This document shows, in pieces, positions 36,374-49,488 of a stretch of DNA of 50,250 nucleotides. The stretch is from contig JAMPDH010000009.1 in the NCBI GenBank assembly GCA_023665725.1, positions 1 through 50,250 on the forward strand. The letters run 5' to 3'. The stretch's first letter is position 1; each line of letters opens with the position of its first letter. The position numbers were made by a program, and so were the translations under genes. The DNA comes from Clostridium sp. Its GTDB lineage: Bacteria; Bacillota_I; Bacilli_A; RF39; UBA660. The notes under the pieces are model-generated. The model did not search any database. It was not told where the DNA came from and worked only from the letters and a program-made list of their open reading frames with translations.

Positions 36374-36901
36374 TTATATGTAATCTTCATTAACTTTATC
36401 AATTTCTTCTTCCATTTCTTTTGTTAATTCTTGATCTAAATCTTCCCATGGTTCTTCATCTTCTTCTATTGATATTTTAACCTTTGTTTCACCTACTATT
36501 TCTACCCCTAATTCCTTTTCTATATCAAAGGTAATTCCTGTATCAGTTATTTCCACTTTAGATACTGTTGGTTGTTTTAAAACTCTAACCATAATATCTG
36601 TATCATCTGTTATATCACTAGTTTCTTTCATTTTCACATTAAATAAATCACTATAATCAATTTGTTTTTTTACTACGTTAGTTTTACTGTCATTATCAAA
36701 TGAATACCATATATTAACATCATAACTTCCTTCTACTCCTATGTTTTCTCCCGCTTTATATCCTTTGAATTTATGATTTATTACCCAACAACCCAATACT
36801 GTAGTTGGTTTATTTTCTACATCAATTGAATAATTGTTTTTAAAGTATTTTTTACCTTTTCCAACAACCGCTTTTGTAACAATTTCCTTAAAAGCTGCCA
36901 T
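36374..36901 (-). CDS. cotE: Outer spore coat morphogenetic protein CotE
   Basis: 175 residues. FKEIVTKAVVGKGKKYFKNNYSI followed by LGCWVINHKFKGYKAG and SYDVNIWYSFDNDSKTNVVKKQIDY is an unmistakable CotE pattern. After VRVLKQPTVSKVEI and EIVGETKVKI comes an acidic tail (EEDEEPWEDLDQELTKEMEEE), as in Bacillus. CotE organises the outer coat on the developing spore. Length is near that of B. subtilis CotE (181). Preceded by GAGGTGA and a candidate sigma-K promoter. Confidence 0.93.
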   Translation of the reverse strand: MAAFKEIVTKAVVGKGKKYFKNNYSIDVENKPTTVLGCWVINHKFKGYKAGENIGVEGSYDVNIWYSFDNDSKTNVVKKQIDYSDLFNVKMKETSDITDDTDIMVRVLKQPTVSKVEITDTGITFDIEKELGVEIVGETKVKISIEEDEEPWEDLDQELTKEMEEEIDKVNEDYI

Positions 36902-37566: not shown

Positions 37567-38087
37567 AATAAATCACCTCTACTAAAATACATAAAATTCT
37601 TCTTTTCTTCTCCTAGCATTGTTCCATTGCCATGACCCGGATAAATAATTATATCATCATTATATTGTAATATTTTGTTTAAACTTTTTTTCATTTCAAT
37701 TAAATTTCCACCTTCTAAATCAACTCTTCCAATAGAACCTTTAAATATAAAATCACCTGTAAACATTACATTTTCATTTTTAAAATATATTGTTATTGAA
37801 TCTTCTTTATGTCCAGGTGTGTGTATTACTTCAAAATTAAATTGTCCAATATTATAAGTCCCATTTTTATATTTATAATCTATTATTTCTGTATTAAAAT
37901 AACTTAATGCTCCTATATGATCAAAATGATAATGTGTAATTATTATTCCTATTACTTGTCTATTTCCAATTACATTTTTTATTTTATCATATTCGTCTCC
38001 TGGATCTATAACCATACAATTATCCCCATATGAAATAATATAACAATTAGTTTGTAAAGCTCCAACTACTATTTTTTCTATATTCAT
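37563..38087 (-). CDS. MBL-fold metallo-hydrolase (glyoxalase II-like)
   Basis: 174 residues. Metal site THYHFDHIGAL near residue 50, VIHTPGHKEDSI near 110, MFTGDFIF and IIYPGHGNGTML near 150. N-terminal VGALQTNCYIISYGDNCMVIDPG is the usual start. This is the short single-domain form without the glyoxalase II C-terminal helix. Probably a thioester or thiol-conjugate hydrolase. Overlaps the acetyltransferase gene by four bases. Confidence 0.9.
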   Translation of the reverse strand: MNIEKIVVGALQTNCYIISYGDNCMVIDPGDEYDKIKNVIGNRQVIGIIITHYHFDHIGALSYFNTEIIDYKYKNGTYNIGQFNFEVIHTPGHKEDSITIYFKNENVMFTGDFIFKGSIGRVDLEGGNLIEMKKSLNKILQYNDDIIIYPGHGNGTMLGEEKKNFMYFSRGDLF

Positions 38088-38107
38088 GATTTTACCTTTC
38101 TAAACAT

Positions 38108-38653
38108 CTAAAATATAATATCAGTATATAATATAATAAATAATAATAAATTAAATATTAACCCAATAATAAATATAATTAAACTTTTATCCTTATGATT
38201 TATAAGTATATTTTTATAATTATTTTTATTATATTTTATCTTTTTTATTTTAATATTGTCTAACTTTAAACATATTGTATTTGAAAAAATAGTATATAAA
38301 AATCTTTTAAATAAAAACATTAAAGATATTAAAAATTGTCCTAATTCATATAAGTATAATGTAAAAAATTGTTTTGTTAGACTACATATAAAATATGAAA
38401 TAAAAATATCTAATGCACTAATTATAATTCCAAAAATAAAATGATTTCTATAATAAAAATATAATGGTCCAAATAAAAATATTAAAAATTTATTTTTATT
38501 TCTTTGCATCCTATCAAACGAATTATTATAAAGTTTTTGATCTTCAAATTTATCTATTTTTGAAACTTTACCAACATAATTGCCATTAAGCATATAACCA
38601 CATTTAATACAACAATTATTTATAATTTTTGAATTGCATTTTGGACATAACAT
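38108..38653 (-). CDS. Zinc-ribbon membrane protein, 181 residues
   Basis: MLCPKCNSKIINNCCIKCGYML is a zinc-ribbon with two C-x2-C pairs. A linker and about three membrane helices follow (FLIFLFGPLYFYYR, FIFGIIISALDIFISYFI, LIIFIIGLIFNLLLFIIL). A cytosolic Zn knuckle fused to a DUF-type membrane part is common in Bacilli; the function is unknown. Starts behind GAGGGT and ends 20 bp before the MBL gene. Confidence 0.8.
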   Translation of the reverse strand: MLCPKCNSKIINNCCIKCGYMLNGNYVGKVSKIDKFEDQKLYNNSFDRMQRNKNKFLIFLFGPLYFYYRNHFIFGIIISALDIFISYFICSLTKQFFTLYLYELGQFLISLMFLFKRFLYTIFSNTICLKLDNIKIKKIKYNKNNYKNILINHKDKSLIIFIIGLIFNLLLFIILYTDIIF

Positions 38654-38728
38654 ATTTCATACCCTCTTATATTTAATAATAACATCTTTAAATTTATAAG
38701 TAAATAGTTGTTGAAATTTATTTAATTT

Positions 38729-38734
38729 TATGAT
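38729..38734 (+). promoter_or_regulatory. Possible -10 of the convergent RNA
   Basis: TATGAT at 38729-38734 on the plus strand, with TAGTTG 18 bases or TTGTTG 15 bases upstream as weak -35 candidates. It would start an RNA near 38741. Confidence 0.35.
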
Positions 38735-38740
38735 AACATG

Positions 38741-38860
38741 TATATAGATGAGAGAAATCTCATAAAATAAAAAAGGATACATTTGAAGTTAGAATCAGAT
38801 GTAATCCCAGTAATGAGAAACACCTGAAATCAACATTAGTTGAAATCAGATGTTTTTATT
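38741..38860 (+). ncRNA. Candidate regulatory RNA antisense to the 25-residue peptide gene
   Basis: No open frame. The segment ends in a strong stem (AACACCTGAAATCAAC against GTTGAAATCAGATGTT, 38819-38856) followed by TTTTTATT. The motif GAATCAGATGT/GAAATCAGATGT occurs twice, near 38791-38802 and 38843-38852. The central arm could therefore pair with either copy, a switch-like layout. No plus-strand gene follows, so it is not an ordinary leader. Its 3' end reaches the stop codon of the minus-strand peptide gene. No known riboswitch class is recognised. Confidence 0.4.
38781..38804 (-). terminator. Possible terminator of the peptide mRNA
   Basis: On the minus strand ACATCTGA and TTCAAATGT pair with one mismatch, followed by ATCCTTTTTTATTTT. 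A transcript ending here would overlap the convergent RNA by roughly 80 bases. Confidence 0.4.
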
Positions 38861-38936
38861 ATCTAAAAAGCAAAATAATTACTATAAAGAATAATAGTAT
38901 TATTATAATAAATTGAGAATATTCTCTTTTTGTCAT
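38859..38936 (-). CDS. 25-residue hydrophobic peptide (candidate type I toxin)
   Basis: ATG 38936 behind AAAGGTGGTGG. The product starts MTKREYSQF and continues as a single hydrophobic segment to a final Arg (25 residues). It has a near-consensus promoter (39004-39033), a leader of about 65 bases with an SD-sequestering hairpin (38949-38968), and a convergent terminated RNA at its 3' end. This combination matches type I toxin genes, though a small sporulation membrane peptide (like the YjcZ-like ones at 19.6 kb) is the main alternative. It lacks their glycine motif. Confidence 0.6.
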   Translation of the reverse strand: MTKREYSQFIIIILLFFIVIILLFR

Positions 38937-38948
38937 AATAAACCACCA

Positions 38949-38968
38949 CCTTTCTTTTACAAGAAAGG
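38949..38968 (-). promoter_or_regulatory. Hairpin over the ribosome binding site of the 25-residue peptide
   Basis: On the minus strand CCTTTCTT-GTAA-AAGAAAGG; the second arm contains the AAAGG of the Shine-Dalgarno sequence. It would lower translation of the full-length mRNA. Confidence 0.6.
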
Positions 38969-39003
38969 GAAAACACCTAACTTTTTCAAATATATCCACA
39001 TTC

Positions 39004-39033
39004 ATTATATAAGAACATATGTATGTGTATCAA
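39004..39033 (-). promoter_or_regulatory. Strong promoter of the 25-residue peptide gene
   Basis: TTGATA (39033-39028), 18-base spacer, TATAAT (39009-39004) on the minus strand, between the end of the U32 gene and the peptide gene. Confidence 0.75.
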
Positions 39034-39042
39034 TATACCATA

Positions 39043-41214
39043 TTAATTATTTATAAATTTAATTAATTCATCTGTTATATCACTTTTAAAATTAACTATA
39101 ATTCTTTTATTTATATTTAAATCAAACTTATTAAATTCGAATTTACTACCATATATATACATTAAATTATCACGTTCTAATATTGGATATTTTTCATTGA
39201 ACTTATCTAATAAATAAGTTGATGTCATATTATATTTTTGATTTAAATTAAATTTAGATACCATTGCCTCTTTCCTCGATGCAATTATAACTTCTATATT
39301 AGGTTCACAATTATATCTGTTAATATAATTATTATAAATACTATTTATCATTTCACCAGTAACTTCATATGAAAGAGTTACTTTTTTTACTCCAACTCTA
39401 TGTAAAAATGCAACAGAATAAGAATTAGTAACATTTAATGAAAAATCAGTTTCTATATTTTTATATTTACATAAACTACCAATATCACCAACTAAAATAT
39501 TAGAATCCAAATTTATATATTTATTTATAATTCTAGGCATTTTAAATATTACCCTACTATCATTTATATCTTTATTAAAATTTATATAAATCTTATCAAA
39601 TTTATATTCTTTTAAATAATTATATATTTCTTCATTAAATACCTCTAAATTAAATTCATGTTTTTGTTTTAAATAAGGTACTTTTATTTCATATTTTCTT
39701 TTTAAATAATTAGTTTTATACATACGTTTATTATTTAACATTTCCACTAACTGTCTTCTTAAAAAATTTAAATCTTTTATATTTACAAAAATATTATTAT
39801 CACTTTTTATTTTAAAATCATTCATTTCATAAACAGTATCGCCAAGTTTCGATAATTGTTCTTTTATTTTTTCATTAGTTACGGGTGAATTTATAGCCTT
39901 ATTTATAATAGGTCCTAAAATACTTACTGAATTTATCCCATCACTATATTCTATCCTTATATTTTTATTTATTATTGCTTCAACATTACAACTTATTAAT
40001 ATTTTCTTTTTAATAGATATTTCTTTATTTATCCTTTGTAACTGATTATAATCAGTTGTTTTAACAACAACACTATTTTTTTTAATGAAATCATTTACTT
40101 TAATATCAATTAAATCATTTTTATATGCTTTGTTTATTCTCTTTTTATTTTTAAACATACTTGTAACTATAAAACCGATATCTTTACAATCTAATATCCT
40201 AATTCCGTCATTAATACTAAGATTATCACTTAACTTTATAGTAATTAAATTATCCTTATACCCTACTACTTTACCAATTTCGATTCCTTGATGATTTGGT
40301 CTTTTATCATTTACAATATTTTTAATACTTTCATTAAATATAAAACCCTTAGTAAACTCCCTATTAAATATTTTTTTCATTTCTTTAATATCGTCATTTG
40401 TTACATTTAAATTTCCATTTTTTATATATGAATCAATTGCTTTTTTGTATAAAGATACTATTAAATATACATATTCTGGTCTTTTCATTCTACCTTCTAT
40501 TTTTAAACTATCAACACCTATATCAATAAATTTATCAATATAATTCAATGTATTTAAATCTTTCATACTTAATGGATAAAAATTATTTATACTTTTTTCA
40601 TTTGAAATAAGTTTATAAGGTAATCTACAACTACCAGCACATTCTCCTCTATTACCACTTCTTTTCCCTATTAAGTAACTCATAAGGCATTGCCCGGAAT
40701 AACTTACACAAAGCGCTCCATGGGCAAAAATTTCTATTTCAATATTTGTATTTTCTTTAATTTTTTTAACTTCTTCTATATCTACTTCCCTTGATAAAAC
40801 TACTCTTTTTACCCCTAGTTGTTGTAAAAATAAAACGCCCTCTAATGTATGGATATTCATTTGAGTTGATGCATGAATTTCTAAATTAGGATATGTTTTT
40901 CTTATTAAATCAAGCATTCCTATATCTTGAATTATTATTGCATCAACACTATTTTTATGCAAAAAATCAATATATTCTAAAAAATCATTGACTTCATGTT
41001 CAAATATTAAAGTATTAACGGTCACATATACTTTTACACCATATAAATGACTGATATTTATAGCATCTATTAACTCCGAATTTGTAAAATTATTAGCAAA
41101 TGCTCTCGCACCATATTTCTTTCCACTTAAATAAATCGCATCACATCCCGCACTTATTGCAGCGTTTAAACATTCCATAGACCCAACCGGCGCTAGTAAT
41201 TCTGGTTTTTTCAT
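39043..41214 (-). CDS. U32 peptidase family protein (RlhA-like)
   Basis: 723 residues. The N-terminal PELLAPVGSMECLNAAISAGCDAIYL, EIHASTQMNIHT and the cluster HGALCVSYSGQCLMSYLIGKRSGNRGECAGSCRLPY near residue 165-200 are the U32 signature with its cysteines. A central DUF3656-like region and a second half of unclear fold follow. Relatives such as RlhA hydroxylate a cytidine of 23S rRNA and others act in tRNA modification, so an RNA-modifying role is likelier than proteolysis. Single gene between a pseudopilin and the peptide locus. Confidence 0.9.
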   Translation of the reverse strand: MKKPELLAPVGSMECLNAAISAGCDAIYLSGKKYGARAFANNFTNSELIDAINISHLYGVKVYVTVNTLIFEHEVNDFLEYIDFLHKNSVDAIIIQDIGMLDLIRKTYPNLEIHASTQMNIHTLEGVLFLQQLGVKRVVLSREVDIEEVKKIKENTNIEIEIFAHGALCVSYSGQCLMSYLIGKRSGNRGECAGSCRLPYKLISNEKSINNFYPLSMKDLNTLNYIDKFIDIGVDSLKIEGRMKRPEYVYLIVSLYKKAIDSYIKNGNLNVTNDDIKEMKKIFNREFTKGFIFNESIKNIVNDKRPNHQGIEIGKVVGYKDNLITIKLSDNLSINDGIRILDCKDIGFIVTSMFKNKKRINKAYKNDLIDIKVNDFIKKNSVVVKTTDYNQLQRINKEISIKKKILISCNVEAIINKNIRIEYSDGINSVSILGPIINKAINSPVTNEKIKEQLSKLGDTVYEMNDFKIKSDNNIFVNIKDLNFLRRQLVEMLNNKRMYKTNYLKRKYEIKVPYLKQKHEFNLEVFNEEIYNYLKEYKFDKIYINFNKDINDSRVIFKMPRIINKYINLDSNILVGDIGSLCKYKNIETDFSLNVTNSYSVAFLHRVGVKKVTLSYEVTGEMINSIYNNYINRYNCEPNIEVIIASRKEAMVSKFNLNQKYNMTSTYLLDKFNEKYPILERDNLMYIYGSKFEFNKFDLNINKRIIVNFKSDITDELIKFINN

Positions 41215-49347: not shown

Positions 49348-49488
49348 TATATTCACCTAACTTTACACATCTAAATATATCACAAGAACATACGTTTGTC
49401 AATTGTGAAAATATTTATAATTTATTTTCGATTATATCATAATTATTTATATTTTTAAATATTTTTAATTTTTTTTGTTATATAAAAC

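Follow-up and report, generated by a model that had tools for sequence, protein, structure and literature searches.

A chromosomal multicopy family of candidate type I toxin-antitoxin modules with probable SOS control in uncultured gut Bacilli

A convergent gene pair occupies positions 38711-39033 of the window, the whole 50,250-nucleotide stretch of DNA analysed here, which lies on contig G000:C29 of a 1.09 Mb genome assembled in 29 contigs. The minus strand would specify an mRNA for the peptide MTKREYSQFIIIILLFFIVIILLFR and the plus strand a ∼111 nt non-coding RNA, with the following features.

38711-38739, plus strand: antisense promoter TTGAAA-17-TAACAT with an extended -10 TG, conserved across the aligned copies and lacking a LexA box
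38747-38857, plus strand: antisense RNA, the candidate antitoxin, ∼111 nt, no ORF, three hairpins, source of covariance model R1
38747-38763, plus strand: 5' hairpin of the antisense RNA, GATGAGA-GAAA-TCTCAT, replaced in other copies by CAAGGAAACTTG or TGAAGGAAACTTCA
38769-38808, both strands: hairpin 1, resembling the mRNA leader in the antisense RNA and, in the mRNA, contributing the 3' side of the long-distance interaction as well as a terminator with TTTTTT
38820-38857, both strands: hairpin 2 with a plus strand T-run (TTTTT, to 38857), the antisense terminator, also present in the mRNA 3' UTR
38769-38997, minus strand: predicted toxin mRNA, ∼229 nt, starting at the GG that follows the -10 and reaching the T-run beyond the second hairpin, both ends placed by sequence
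38859-38936, minus strand: candidate toxin ORF, 25 aa, MTKREYSQFIIIILLFFIVIILLFR, stop included (stop codon at 38859-38861)
38949-38969, minus strand: SD-hiding hairpin CCTTTCTT-GTAA-AAGAAAGG, predicted in full, trimmed and leader-only mRNA folds
38967-38997, minus strand: mRNA leader, beginning GGATATATTTG at 38997, the 5' half of the 5'-3' long-distance interaction
39004-39033, minus strand: toxin promoter TTGATA-18-TATAAT, -35 at 39033-39028 and -10 at 39009-39004, both conserved in 48 aligned copies
39013-39024, minus strand: LexA-type operator ATACATATGTTC in the promoter spacer, one mismatch to the lineage consensus RAACAWWTGTTY, 10.9 bits

The anatomy of the module, like its conservation, covariation and box position, was established by computation, using an alignment of 48 copies from the same genome and its relatives. 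The TTGATA-18-TATAAT promoter proposed for the peptide in a first-pass annotation is present and, matching at 11/12 positions, is the best promoter match in 38000-39700, a region in which promoter-like sites as a class are not in excess (22 found, 22.8 expected from shuffled sequence). The leader hairpin said to hide the ribosome binding site is equally evident, mean unpaired probability of the SD being 0.17-0.22 over 47 copies; it is followed by GGTGGTGG and the ATG at 38936 of a hydrophobic peptide of 25 aa with a charged N-terminus. On the mRNA strand, a TTTTTT run at 38774-38769 follows hairpin 1, the second of the two hairpins in the direction of the mRNA, and we infer that the toxin mRNA ends there.

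A terminated, ORF-less RNA does converge on the peptide gene, but it does not run into the gene as had been thought, as the overlap is confined to the toxin mRNA 3' UTR and ends at the toxin stop codon. Since the T-runs on the two strands follow different hairpins, the two RNAs would overlap by ∼89 nt, each apparently terminating after the hairpin far from its own promoter. The 3' overlap of the original proposal stands with two tandem hairpins, whereas a single shared bidirectional terminator of the par kind was not found with the RNA ends placed in this way. Similarly, the duplicated GAATCAGATGT motif is real, at 38793 and 38843, but belongs to a larger network in which it supplies arms of the two strong hairpins and occurs again in the peptide leader. 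The leader is itself complementary to the antisense RNA, adding a second such region to the 3' overlap. The architecture of par/Fst and TxpA/RatA type that had been suggested, comprising both promoters, SD hairpin, peptide, convergent RNA and overlap, recurs across the 48 aligned copies, and the layout is found in more than 100 other genomes. The window RNA scores 100.1 bits (E 2.2e-16) against model R1, in which it is included by construction.

The module is a member of a multicopy family. A DNA search added four full-length copies from this genome, of which three are in tandem, and many from relatives, while model R1 has 13 matches in this genome and a maximum of 19 per genome in the order sample. 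R1 matches were detected in 80 of the 117 family genomes in the sample, in 141 of 193 genomes of the order, where all members among the matches listed belong to that same family, and in 36 of 395 genomes of the class, one of which lies outside it; in a phylum sample, 1 of the 11 positive genomes was from elsewhere. The only two matches seen outside the family (G409:C32:11748-11856, E 3.8e-8; G712:C20:3051-3162, E 7.5e-5) are attributable to transfer, contamination or chance. When 257 Gb were searched for an exact pattern built from both mRNA ends (GGATACATTTGA...TCAAATGTATCC, 175-205 nt apart), 31 stretches were recovered, titled as Bacilli, Bacillales, Bacillota, Firmicutes, Tenericutes or 'bacterium' MAGs, and several of the names refer to gut samples of ruminants, deer or chicken. 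The group probably corresponds to the order RF39 or to a neighbouring lineage. The modules are thus virtually confined to one family of uncultured gut Bacilli, with almost none outside. Copies on mobile elements were not found among viral contigs with the exact end-pairing pattern, or in phage and plasmid collections with blastn.

The peptide is under purifying selection, with a pN/pS of 0.28 over 31 intact 25-aa copies. Three subfamilies are recognised: A, with a peptide resembling MTKREx(S)(Q/L)FIIILLLFFIVITLLFK; C, a divergent MNKKDFL... group; and B, which is intermediate, retaining the peptide with different RNA motifs. A few broken copies also occur, through a stop codon (G022_C15_105688), frameshifts (G029_C20, G034_C15) or, in some, loss of the start. 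The first-pass annotation had named a peptide conserved without any convergent RNA as the observation that would speak against a pair. A peptide profile search of 40 genomes gave 27 strong matches, all 27 with the antisense RNA adjacent and none a toxin without its RNA, which answers this point in favour of a pair. The peptide had not been recognised as a member of any family, and no match to a known protein or RNA family was obtained here, searches of Pfam, NCBIfam, PHROGs, PADLOC and Rfam returning sub-threshold matches only and Fst in Pfam giving no match at E≤1. One Rfam candidate, sau-19 (E 0.084), was taken as chance.

Several observations concern the surroundings of the module. In the congener G001, a U32 peptidase gene is followed directly by a metallo-beta-lactamase-fold gene, the toxin-antitoxin module and a 181-aa ORF that separate the two genes in the window being absent; the window copy has therefore been gained here or lost there. 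The 181-aa protein (38108-38653, minus strand) has an N-terminal zinc-ribbon-like CxxC..CxxC, a hydrophobic C-terminal part and no Pfam match. A CotE spore-coat protein (36374-36901, minus strand; Pfam PF10628, E 9.6e-51) is encoded in this 1.09 Mb genome, a hint of possible sporulation in a lineage with reduced genomes.

Regulation of the toxin promoter was investigated using a LexA matrix built from recA, lexA and uvrA boxes with a cut-off of 8 bits. A lexA gene is present in the same genome, and in relatives recA and lexA bear RAACAAATGTTY-type boxes, that of recA lying ∼80 bp upstream of the start. A LexA box, GAACATACGTTT, is also present in the window itself at 49386-49397, upstream of a minus strand uvrA-like gene, and served as a control for the SOS regulon. 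Boxes above the cut-off occur between the -35 and -10 of 30 of the 48 toxin promoters and in only 2 of the 48 antisense promoters. Among 39 extra loci, nine lacking a leader/3' pair under a strict script rule were left out and duplicates were dropped; of the 29 further loci, which include a few repeats of copies already counted, 23 exceeded 8 bits and in all 23 the box lies at -26/-27 relative to the leader. In total, 53 of the 77 toxin-promoter copies tested have a LexA box in this constant position.

This genome has six strict boxes RAACAWWYGTTY, of which lexA accounts for two, recA and uvrA for one apiece and subfamily C toxin promoters for the remaining two. The window copy and four close paralogues bear the one-mismatch form ATACATATGTTC; a similar form, ATACATTTGTTC, is a second lexA-upstream site in two relatives and is also found at unassigned sites elsewhere in this genome. 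The strict pattern GAACRNRYGTTY alone gave two matches compared with eight for a reversed control, indicating that site counts by themselves prove nothing, and the argument for LexA consequently rests on the genes at the sites, the fixed position and the matrix. Toxin promoters of the GAACAAATGTTT type are candidate LexA targets; SOS control is well supported for the family as a whole, and only likely for the window copy. As 18 of the 48 and 6 of the 29 copies are without a good box, SOS control would not be universal.

The same data bear on an alternative in which the module is of type I with a main trigger other than SOS, the box reflecting ancestry and many copies answering other signals or serving solely in addiction or anti-phage defence. 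The 24 of 77 copies without a good LexA box are consistent with this, as are the degenerate box of the window copy and another inverted repeat, CCACTTTG..CAAAGTGG, shared by the G014 copies near the promoter. We nevertheless consider it improbable, since the position of the box is fixed in most copies across many genera, its sequence matches the recA/lexA boxes of the lineage, and the other strict boxes in this genome lie only at SOS genes. Three of the G014 copies are close together (L048, G014:C23, 700-1700), with promoters sharing the inverted repeat rather than a LexA box, perhaps the site of a different regulator.

The toxin mRNA is predicted to fold end to end. The window mRNA has a predicted fold of -75.6 kcal/mol with ∼27 pairs between the leader and the 3' end, and at least 10 such pairs are present in the MFE structure of 47 of 48 copies. 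RNAalifold returned the leader-3' end helix unprompted from 41 copies. In the alignment, 96.9% of the cells of this helix are paired, falling to 28-42% when the partner is slid as a control, and competing local hairpins fit less well (88.7% paired, score 0.252). The helix contains 101 double changes compared with 33.8 in shuffles, affecting 14 of 23 pairs, and its covariation score is 0.395 compared with 0.229 when shuffled, where the cells represent related sequences and not independent events. Because the leader resembles the antisense RNA, part of this covariation could stem from gene conversion between inverted repeats; however, non-Watson-Crick cells comprise 65 G-U and 13 A-C, a bias that is better explained by RNA pairing in the mRNA sense than by gene conversion of a simple kind.

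The folding data do not assign occlusion of the SD to the long-distance interaction. Predicted unpaired probability of the SD is 0.17 in the full mRNA and 0.18 after removal of 35 nt from the 3' end, and occlusion by the interaction itself, as in aapA, is therefore not supported. Trimming of the 3' end is, in contrast, predicted to raise the unpaired probability of the leader from 0.18 to 0.39. As the SD is closed in either state and the leader is opened by trimming, the interaction appears to hide the antisense targets and not the SD.

A further explanation, that the locus is a MITE-like mobile repeat with inverted ends in which the ORF and hairpins are incidental, was already disfavoured and is regarded as very improbable. 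It would account for the multiple copies, including tandem copies ∼350 bp apart on G000:C10, for the inverted-repeat character and for the unoccupied site in the congener. It would not lead one to expect purifying selection on the peptide, conservation of both promoters, the SD and the start, a constant position of the LexA box or an excess of G-U over A-C in the mRNA sense, and no transposase link was seen. The type I-like reading of the first-pass annotation is largely supported; its account had lacked the presence of 13 copies in this genome, the toxin promoter's LexA box and the pairing between the 5' and 3' ends of the mRNA.

Recognition between leader and antisense RNA differs between subfamilies. 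For leader and antisense RNA of one subfamily, A or C, predicted pairing energies range from -19 to -22.5 kcal/mol, compared with -12.7 to -15.4 kcal/mol for A against C, whereas subfamily B leaders pair with C antisense RNAs approximately as well as with those of B, leaving B and C poorly separated. The first antisense hairpin has a mean identity of 0.73 to the leader compared with 0.54 for shuffled leaders. We tentatively suggest, as a possibility short of an even chance, that the antitoxin RNA mimics the toxin mRNA leader and competes for the same 3' segment, silencing being a switch between intramolecular and intermolecular duplexes, that A and C are kept apart by covarying sequences and that up to 19 loci form an SOS-driven arsenal in one small genome.

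The locus is quite likely a type I toxin-antitoxin module that is chromosomal, present in multiple copies and regulated by the SOS response. The mechanism envisaged extends to transcription, processing, LexA binding, toxicity and physiological role, all of which we infer. LexA would hold toxin mRNA at a low level while the antisense RNA is made constitutively. Toxin mRNA arising from leaky transcription would fold end to end, with both antisense-binding regions hidden and the SD closed. Trimming at the 3' end would free the leader, and the antisense RNA could then pair with the freed leader and the 3' UTR, resulting in silencing or RNase III decay of the toxin mRNA. In response to DNA damage, LexA would be cleaved and toxin mRNA would outrun the antisense RNA, the peptide entering the membrane and causing depolarisation and growth arrest in the manner of TisB. 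The peptide could instead be an SOS checkpoint factor, a small membrane protein which, at normal levels, delays division after DNA damage while the antisense RNA guards against leaky expression, and neither an addiction nor a persister toxin. The LexA box evidence applies equally to such a peptide, and the family is chromosomal with no plasmid or phage copies in the collections searched. This seems unlikely to us, as up to 19 copies per genome, subfamilies, broken copies and the unoccupied site in the congener are more typical of selfish or arsenal-type toxin-antitoxin loci, and the double post-transcriptional lock suggests strong toxicity.

The preferred reading, an SOS-regulated type I module, places the locus beside several known systems. 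As expected of type I systems in general, a small hydrophobic peptide under purifying selection is accompanied by a conserved complementary antisense RNA. With par (fst/RNA II) of Enterococcus pAD1 and the Fst/Ldr superfamily it shares 3'-overlapping convergent RNAs, an SD-hiding 5' stem-loop and repeats transcribed in both directions, through which the leader gains a further complementary stretch (PMC7472228); convergent promoters and the SD-hiding 5' stem-loop are both found in the present family. In contrast, the PXXXG motif and charged C-terminal tail of Fst/Ldr toxins are absent among the peptides listed for it, and it has two tandem hairpins in place of a single shared terminator, a long 5'-3' interaction and a LexA box. 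The txpA/RatA and bsrG/SR4 systems of B. subtilis and the CD2517.1-RCd8 type of C. difficile also have convergent, 3'-overlapping mRNA and antitoxin RNA, and the B. subtilis systems share SD sequestration (PMC6562991, PMC6563280). The C. difficile toxins are 50-53 aa long compared with 25 aa here (PMC6562991, PMC6563280), and a search by term in these two reviews gave neither a LexA box nor a long-distance interaction for the B. subtilis or C. difficile systems.

Control of transcription resembles that of tisB/IstR-1 and dinQ/AgrB of E. coli, in which a short hydrophobic peptide (29 and 27 aa for TisB and DinQ, respectively) is repressed by LexA and the antisense brake is outside LexA control (PMC8309996, PMC5848175). 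Correspondingly, the toxin promoter contains a LexA-type operator, with one mismatch in the window copy, and the promoter of the antitoxin does not. In E. coli, IstR-1 and tisB are divergently arranged (PMC4147584), whereas the present genes are convergent with a 3' overlap, encode a different peptide and reside in gut Bacilli. With aapA/IsoA of Helicobacter and hok/Sok the family shares a 5'-3' long-distance interaction in full-length toxin mRNA and a multicopy chromosomal distribution (PMC6733600); it differs in the leader-like sequence of its antisense RNA, in the overlap of that RNA with the 3' UTR and in the local hiding of the SD.

Conversion of inactive to active toxin mRNA by processing has been presented as a Gram-negative device (reviewed in PMC6562991), and SOS-controlled type I toxins are recorded only from E. 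coli in the part of the literature covered (PMC6563280, PMC6562991). If the present reading is true, the family would unite SOS control and activation by mRNA processing in Bacilli, in many copies in most sampled members of an uncultured gut group with ∼1 Mb genomes. DNA-damaging drugs are used in the gut, where a damage-triggered growth-arrest arsenal would bear on persistence, and the covarying subfamilies offer natural material for the question of how paralogous RNA antitoxins keep to their own targets. The module thus appears par/Fst-like in architecture, hok/AapA-like in mRNA folding and TisB-like in transcription, with a peptide that falls in none of these families, and is best classed as a new family of putative function in which such controls are newly combined.
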